NCBI GenBank assembly: GCA_945872065.1
Contig: CAMBYH010000006.1
Coordinates: 1-64,000 of the forward strand
From: Arsukibacterium tuosuense
GTDB lineage: Bacteria; Pseudomonadota; Gammaproteobacteria; Steroidobacterales; GCA-2729495
Direction: 5' to 3'
DNA length: 64,000 nt
Shown: piece after piece, positions 43,638 through 44,810 of the stretch
Position numbering within the stretch: position 1 is the first letter of the stretch
How the letters are laid out: the number at the start of each line of letters is the position of its first letter
Position numbers and translations under genes: made by a program
The notes under the pieces: generated by a model
Seen by the model: the letters and a program-made list of their open reading frames with translations, nothing else
What the model was told of the DNA's origin: nothing
Database searches by the model: none

Positions 43638-43656
43638 GGCTCAGATGGTACCTCAC

Positions 43657-43685
43657 AAAAAAAAGTGCCCGCCAGAGGCGGGCAC
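43657..43685 (-). terminator. Strong rho-independent terminator of the lysine-rich mini-gene
   Basis: Read on the minus strand: stem GTGCCCGCC-TCT-GGCGGGCAC followed by eight T. It ends the transcript of the 23-residue peptide gene just before the rpiA start codon, so rpiA must have a promoter beyond it or depend on read-through. Confidence 0.95.
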
Positions 43686-43700
43686 CGATCGTCGCGTGTT

Positions 43701-43748
43701 TCCTCTTTTCAGAGGATCGGCGTAAGACCCTTTCGGGCCTCACGCCGA
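43701..43748 (-). other. Two GAAA-tetraloop hairpins in the 3' UTR of the mini-gene
   Basis: On the minus strand a 14-bp stem (43748-43717) with loop GAAA is directly followed by a 6-bp stem TCCTCT-GAAA-AGAGGA (43716-43701). Two positions of the long stem are G-U wobbles when read as minus-strand RNA, but would be A-C mismatches on the plus strand. This indicates that the minus-strand RNA is the folded product. Confidence 0.75.
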
Positions 43749-43757
43749 CGCGCATCT

Positions 43758-43829
43758 CTAACGCTTTTTCTTTGCAGCCTTCTTCTTGGTCTTCTTCGTT
43801 ACTTTCTTCGCAACTTTCTTCGTAGCCAT
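43758..43829 (-). CDS. 23-residue lysine-rich basic peptide
   Basis: A tiny gene encoding MATKKVAKKVTKKTKKKAAK followed by KKR and TAG. Thirteen of 23 residues are Lys, in a pattern (K-K-V/A/T) like the tails of histone H1-like and AlgP-type proteins. It probably binds nucleic acid. Upstream of the ATG, GGAGACTAAAACT gives a ribosome-binding site (GGAG) 9 bases away. The start, the regular pattern, the following hairpins and the strong terminator together support a real transcription unit of about 200 bases. The peptide might also be a minor part of a structured RNA with its own function. No homologue can be cited with certainty. Confidence 0.75.
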   Translation of the reverse strand: MATKKVAKKVTKKTKKKAAKKKR

Positions 43830-43939
43830 AGTTTTAGTCTCCGTGTCGAGGTGGACGGGACTGAGTATATACAACAGTTGGAAAAATTCCAGCAAGGGGG
43901 AGTTTTCTTCCTTGACTTCGGTTGCGAGCAAGCGACAAC

Positions 43940-44609: not shown

Positions 44610-44810
44610 CGGTCTCTCCCGCCTGTGCCGGTGCGGCCTGCTGCTCACAGACCAAGAGCATCAGGTGGGACCAGAAGAGGCAGAGAAGGCTTCCCGTCCA
44701 GAATTAATCTGAACGGTAATGCACAAACTGCCCACAATACGCGATCCCGAAAGCGCGATTAAGGGTCGAGAGACCTATCAAGCCGCTGTCGAACACTGCA
44801 GGAGAGACCT
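44610..44810 (-). ncRNA. ssrS: 6S RNA
   Basis: About 200 bases between zapA and ygfA, the conserved position of ssrS. The ends pair: 5' GGTCTCTCC (44809-44801) with 3' GGGAGAGACC (44620-44611), the closing stem of 6S RNA. The start fits a TATACT box seven bases upstream. The internal arms and central bubble were not folded in detail. 6S RNA binds sigma70 RNA polymerase in stationary phase and mimics an open promoter. Confidence 0.88.

Follow-up and report, generated by a model that had tools for sequence, protein, structure and literature searches.

Gene context and coding capacity

Between ygfA and rpiA, the window (the whole 64,000-nucleotide stretch of DNA analysed) carries a minute lysine-rich reading frame followed by a strongly folded 3' untranslated region (UTR). 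This raises the question of whether the locus acts through its peptide, through its RNA or on the downstream rpiA gene (features in Table 1). The initial annotation had described a tiny minus-strand lysine-rich gene placed between ygfA/6S RNA and rpiA, and the reading frame and its position were both recovered, the gene order being zapA, 6S RNA, ygfA, peptide gene and rpiA. The 13 lysines it had counted are one too many, as the 23 residues of the peptide include 12 lysines and one arginine. As in other Gammaproteobacteria, the 6S RNA lies upstream of ygfA.

Table 1. Features of the peptide gene locus, with coordinates in the window
Feature	Coordinates	Strand	Basis
Putative promoter region: TTGCTG (43895-43890) and TATATACT box (43871-43864)	43864..43895	minus	conserved across the order
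Short conserved 5' leader with Shine-Dalgarno GGAG	43830..43863	minus	order-wide leader pattern
Lysine-rich peptide gene, 23 aa, MATKKVAKKVTKKTKKKAAKKKR	43829-43758	minus	ATG-started ORF; signature of coding selection; longer homologues in the same slot
Long GAAA-capped hairpin, 14 pairs, two of them G-U	43748-43717	minus	fold; compensated changes relative to G005
Short GAAA-capped hairpin, 6 pairs	43716-43701	minus	fold; stem kept and sequence changed in relatives
Intrinsic terminator GTGCCCGCC-TCT-GGCGGGCAC-T8	43685-43657	minus	conserved in relatives
rpiA	43637-42975	minus	
6S RNA	44612-44807	minus	Rfam match, 50.4 bits

The 23-residue gene is real, tiny and highly conserved. Short-form genes of equal length differing at no more than 20% of their bases were compared in pairs, which are not independent of each other; differences at codon positions 1, 2 and 3 amounted to 22, 16 and 162 (162 of 200 at the third position), and codon changes were synonymous in 145 cases versus 33 non-synonymous ones. 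Because DNA coding for many lysines also stays open in its other frames, the coding argument was based on this position bias, on the fixed ATG and on the ribosome-binding site. Together they show that the reading frame is clearly subject to coding selection.

Promoter and leader

TTGCTG lies 18 bases before the TATATACT box, and the arrangement TTGCTG/T-GGAATTTT...TTGTATATACT upstream of the gene is conserved across the order. The gene probably has its own promoter, which would yield a transcript of ~200 bases. The leader was searched for with the pattern TATATACT-N8-20-GACA-N0-2-GGAGA, which the window fits at 43871-43838, with GGAG upstream of the ATG. This pattern occurred in 121 of the 296 order genomes, at a single place per genome with one exception, and the reversed control pattern gave no match among the order genomes. 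No match was found among 364 genomes of the class outside the order either, and in a class-wide draw the four positive genomes out of 369 were all members of the order. Within a genus, leaders were 93-98% identical.

Two candidate controls of translation were rejected. The leader contains ACACGGAG, which resembles a CsrA site, but CsrA (PF02599) was not found in the window genome (G000, rated 100% complete), control genomes being positive. A 5' hairpin hiding the Shine-Dalgarno sequence was not supported, the window leader folding no better than shuffles (z = -0.25) and the sequestering fold varying from one leader to another.

Distribution across the order

A lysine-rich gene occupies the slot between ygfA and rpiA through most of the order (Steroidobacteraceae and Woeseiaceae relatives), and its products ranged from 15 to ~200 residues in 103 order genomes. 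A DNA search of 99 relatives gave matches to all or part of the unit in 40, and the loci then read encoded lysine-rich products of 20 to more than 150 residues. The exact leader pattern was not a prerequisite: among 26 order genomes devoid of it and matched through rpiA, 21 still had a lysine-rich gene immediately before rpiA, most of them with a recognisable leader. No such gene was found upstream of rpiA in 29 relatives of the class outside the order. In a contig-wide pattern scan, at least 18 loci were true members and the other matches listed were chance occurrences in A+T-rich genomes. Named members among the matches listed were Woeseiaceae, one Steroidobacteraceae and 'Chromatiales bacterium MAG-239', from which families f7 and f11 would be Woeseiaceae and Steroidobacteraceae. 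Many genomes of relatives are probably MAGs.

Lysine-rich proteins are of low complexity and may look alike without common descent; the homology claim is therefore carried by synteny and by the leader. The window gene lies between ygfA and rpiA and bears the leader TATATACT...GACA-GGAGA. Judged on synteny and leader, the peptide is a shortened form of a histone-H1-tail-like protein kept by relatives in the same chromosomal slot, a long lysine-rich protein family with a locus fixed across an order that the initial annotation had overlooked. In relatives from families f4 and f6 (L012, 1-1250, and L016, 700-1385), an extra ORF separates ygfA from the lysine-rich gene; it presumably encodes a protein resembling EVE-domain proteins.

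Length variation of the product

The length survey covered 103 genomes. In family f11, the product had 15-26 residues in all 26 members, whereas all families other than f11 and f1, the family of the window, had products of at least 47 residues. Lengths were mixed in f1, with 20-37, 57 and 91-174 residues. Products of relatives are built on K-K-x-A-K-K type repeats, up to ~200 residues; since these relatives keep the gene with more repeats, it is the number of repeats rather than the gene that varies in evolution. The short and long states required at least seven changes on an rpiA tree, a single-gene tree with weak deep nodes on which the exact number of changes is uncertain; long forms nevertheless set the two short groups of f1 (genera g1 and g4) apart from each other and from the f11 forms. 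Short forms arose more than once.

A codon-pattern search of the window genome detected no second long lysine-rich run, which speaks against the short form as a helper of a long paralogue there; a paralogue search with a long protein as query misses even the known gene and is blind in this respect. The long-form genome G082 (family f7), unlike the window genome, displayed many more lysine-rich repeat stretches on several contigs.

Structure of the 3' UTR

Two GAAA-capped hairpins and a terminator had been proposed for the 3' UTR, and the fold and a terminator scan confirmed them. The hairpin part without the terminator (43757-43686) had a minimum free energy (MFE) of -42.1 kcal/mol versus -20.4 kcal/mol for shuffles (z = -7.0; 0 of 200 shuffles). 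The view that the minus-strand RNA is the structured form also held: both G-U pairs in the long stem become mismatches on the plus strand, which explains why the full 3' stretch folds better on the minus strand (-62.3 kcal/mol) than on the plus strand (-50.7 kcal/mol).

Conservation of the hairpins was compared with that of the flanking genes. Relative to the sister species G007, the hairpin region (70/70) and the terminator (31/31) were identical, versus 84-85% identity at third codon positions of ygfA and zapA. The hairpin region was 82% identical to that of the congener G002 and 63% to that of G005, versus 46-63% and 37-54%, respectively, at third positions of the flanks. Over the 13 pairs of the long stem common to the window and G005, placed in a manual register that equals a structure-blind MAFFT alignment, five pairs had changed on both sides, two on one side and six were unchanged, none being broken. 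With 12 family members, RNAalifold found compensated pairs in nine of 23 predicted pairs, and their alignment contained no conserved unpaired stretch. Reading frame and hairpins, whose conservation the initial annotation had proposed as a check, were retained in relatives, the former by its coding bias and the latter by compensated pairs. From one genus of the family to another, the stems retain their shape although their sequence is almost entirely replaced; these compensated pairs amid sequence turnover indicate that, beyond close relatives, selection bears on shape and not on sequence.

In 78 relatives, the stretch from stop codon to terminator had a mean z of -2.6 (-3.7 with short products versus -2.1 with long ones). 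Some short-form relatives (L205 and L207-L209) had almost no structure before the terminator (z near 0), so that the hairpins are not essential to this kind of gene. Most likely, they fit a role in cis, in 3' end protection and termination, better than that of a base-pairing regulator. Only tRNA-Gln and 6S RNA were detected in the window by Rfam 15 at gathering score, none for the RNA of this gene; weak matches in the gene region were far under their cutoffs.

Relation to known histone H1-like proteins

The peptide resembles an H1 tail by its composition, and it cannot be filed in PF07382. It had no Pfam or NCBIfam match; a 150-residue relative reached 32.9 bits (E = 8.7e-8) against Pfam HC2 (PF07382), under the cutoff of 40, and the best relative scored 21.7 bits against NCBIfam NF038053 (histone H1-like, Burkholderia type), for a cutoff of 80. 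Nevertheless, the locus displays tandem lysine-rich, pentamer-type repeats with length variation at one place, as is typical of Hc2. Hc2/HctB of Chlamydia, BpH1 of Bordetella and the Burkholderia H1-like proteins have in common with the proteins described here tail-like lysine-rich repeats that make up nearly the whole protein, as well as strong length variation through repeat number. They measure 165-237, 182-206 and 149-231 residues, respectively, and bpH1 knock-outs resemble the wild type in growth and appearance (PMC2848022). Unlike these Hc2-like proteins, those found here span 15 to ~200 residues (23 in the window), match no model above cutoff, are fixed between ygfA and rpiA behind a conserved leader of their own and belong to another bacterial group.

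AlgP of Pseudomonas aeruginosa, like PhaF, likewise has an H1-like, lysine- and alanine-rich disordered DNA-binding tail; in addition to binding DNA, AlgP is associated with polyphosphate granules (PMC9239181). However, AlgP combines a 124-residue N-terminal domain with KPAA repeats, whereas the proteins of this locus consist of the tail only and the peptide is devoid of proline. The sX6 transcript of Xanthomonas, first taken as an sRNA and later shown to be protein-coding (PMC5559785), is a precedent only for a small RNA that turned out to be coding; no sequence link to the present gene was found, and kinship with it was rejected. Within the literature library covered, the search yielded no paper on these short lysine-rich forms.

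Possible consequence for rpiA

In the window, only 19 bases (43638-43657) lie between the T-run of the terminator and the start of rpiA. A scan of this region revealed no promoter-like site, but it also missed the promoter of the peptide gene itself. Such a gap leaves no space for a promoter, and rpiA may rely on terminator read-through in the window. Such a dependence would contrast with most relatives; many of them have a longer spacer between terminator and rpiA with a TATAAT-like box.

Proposed function and alternative explanations

We consider it probable that the locus encodes a tail-only H1/Hc2-like polycationic protein shrunk to a peptide, and that it has a promoter of its own and a 3' end protecting the message in cis. 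The promoter would drive a monocistronic mRNA of ~200 bases, probably well expressed, whose single coding region would give a disordered, strongly basic peptide of 23 residues. This peptide would bind nucleic acids electrostatically (DNA, possibly RNA or polyphosphate) and thereby help to compact or organise them, while the hairpins and terminator would act in cis to terminate transcription and to keep exonucleases off the 3' end of the message. Composition upholds the nucleic-acid-binding type assigned to the peptide initially, and it is from composition only that DNA or RNA would be predicted as a ligand. Given the comparisons with H1-like proteins, AlgP and RNA condensates, DNA binding is a first guess, with RNA or polyphosphate as its rival.

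That rival supposes the same gene, with its H1-like promoter kept, and short polyamine-like peptides aimed mainly at RNA, the ribosome or polyphosphate instead of DNA. A length of 15-24 residues is modest for a DNA-bridging peptide, condensates form between RNA and lysine-rich peptides (PMC6606616), AlgP with its H1-like tail associates with polyphosphate granules and the 26 f11 genomes carry only 15-26 residues, but composition alone cannot choose a ligand; we regard this reading as possible, although rather unlikely. It would be equally tentative to propose that shrinking to 15-27 residues changed the function, turning a DNA-compacting H1-like protein into a polyamine-like ligand of RNA, the ribosome or polyphosphate, the structured 3' end taking part in expression control, and that this state was fixed in Steroidobacteraceae and arose again in the family of the window.

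Explanations that place the function elsewhere than in a lysine-rich protein are much less probable. The idea, raised initially, of a dual-function RNA or a stabilised mRNA was borne out as regards the peptide-coding part, with a stabilised mRNA as one option, but not as regards a regulatory RNA acting in trans through the structured 3' part. The structure is strong and conserved, and the window genome and G007 have the same 3' UTR, yet stems and loops differ in sequence from genus to genus, the 12-member family alignment lacks a conserved unpaired stretch, several short-peptide relatives have no hairpins and Rfam gives no match at gathering score; without conserved sequence in the stems across genera, such a regulator is very improbable. 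An attenuator leader peptide controlling rpiA could also be evoked by a set of lysine codons, hairpins and terminator placed before an enzyme gene, and the short distance from terminator to rpiA, seen in the window as well as in some relatives from f4 and f6, would suit it. However, RpiA is unconnected with lysine, no competing antiterminator arrangement appears in the fold and, in many relatives, the TATAAT-like box intervenes; as the same gene encodes proteins of up to ~200 residues elsewhere, absurd for a leader peptide, attenuation appears even more improbable. Finally, the very short, low-complexity frame and the nesting of short forms among long ones in f1 might evoke a chance ORF or the decaying remnant of a longer gene, but promoter, leader, start, frame and terminator are all conserved, and the excess of third-position differences and the near identity of leaders within a genus make this scarcely credible.

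Significance

Annotation is likely to miss the short forms because no Pfam or NCBIfam model matches them. With the tail-only H1-like protein as the preferred reading, nature provides, at this single locus, H1-tail-like proteins of graded length (15 to ~200 residues) under nearly constant promoter, leader and neighbours. Such a series makes it possible to test how much lysine-rich tail the organisation of nucleoid or RNA needs, and what the shortest form does.
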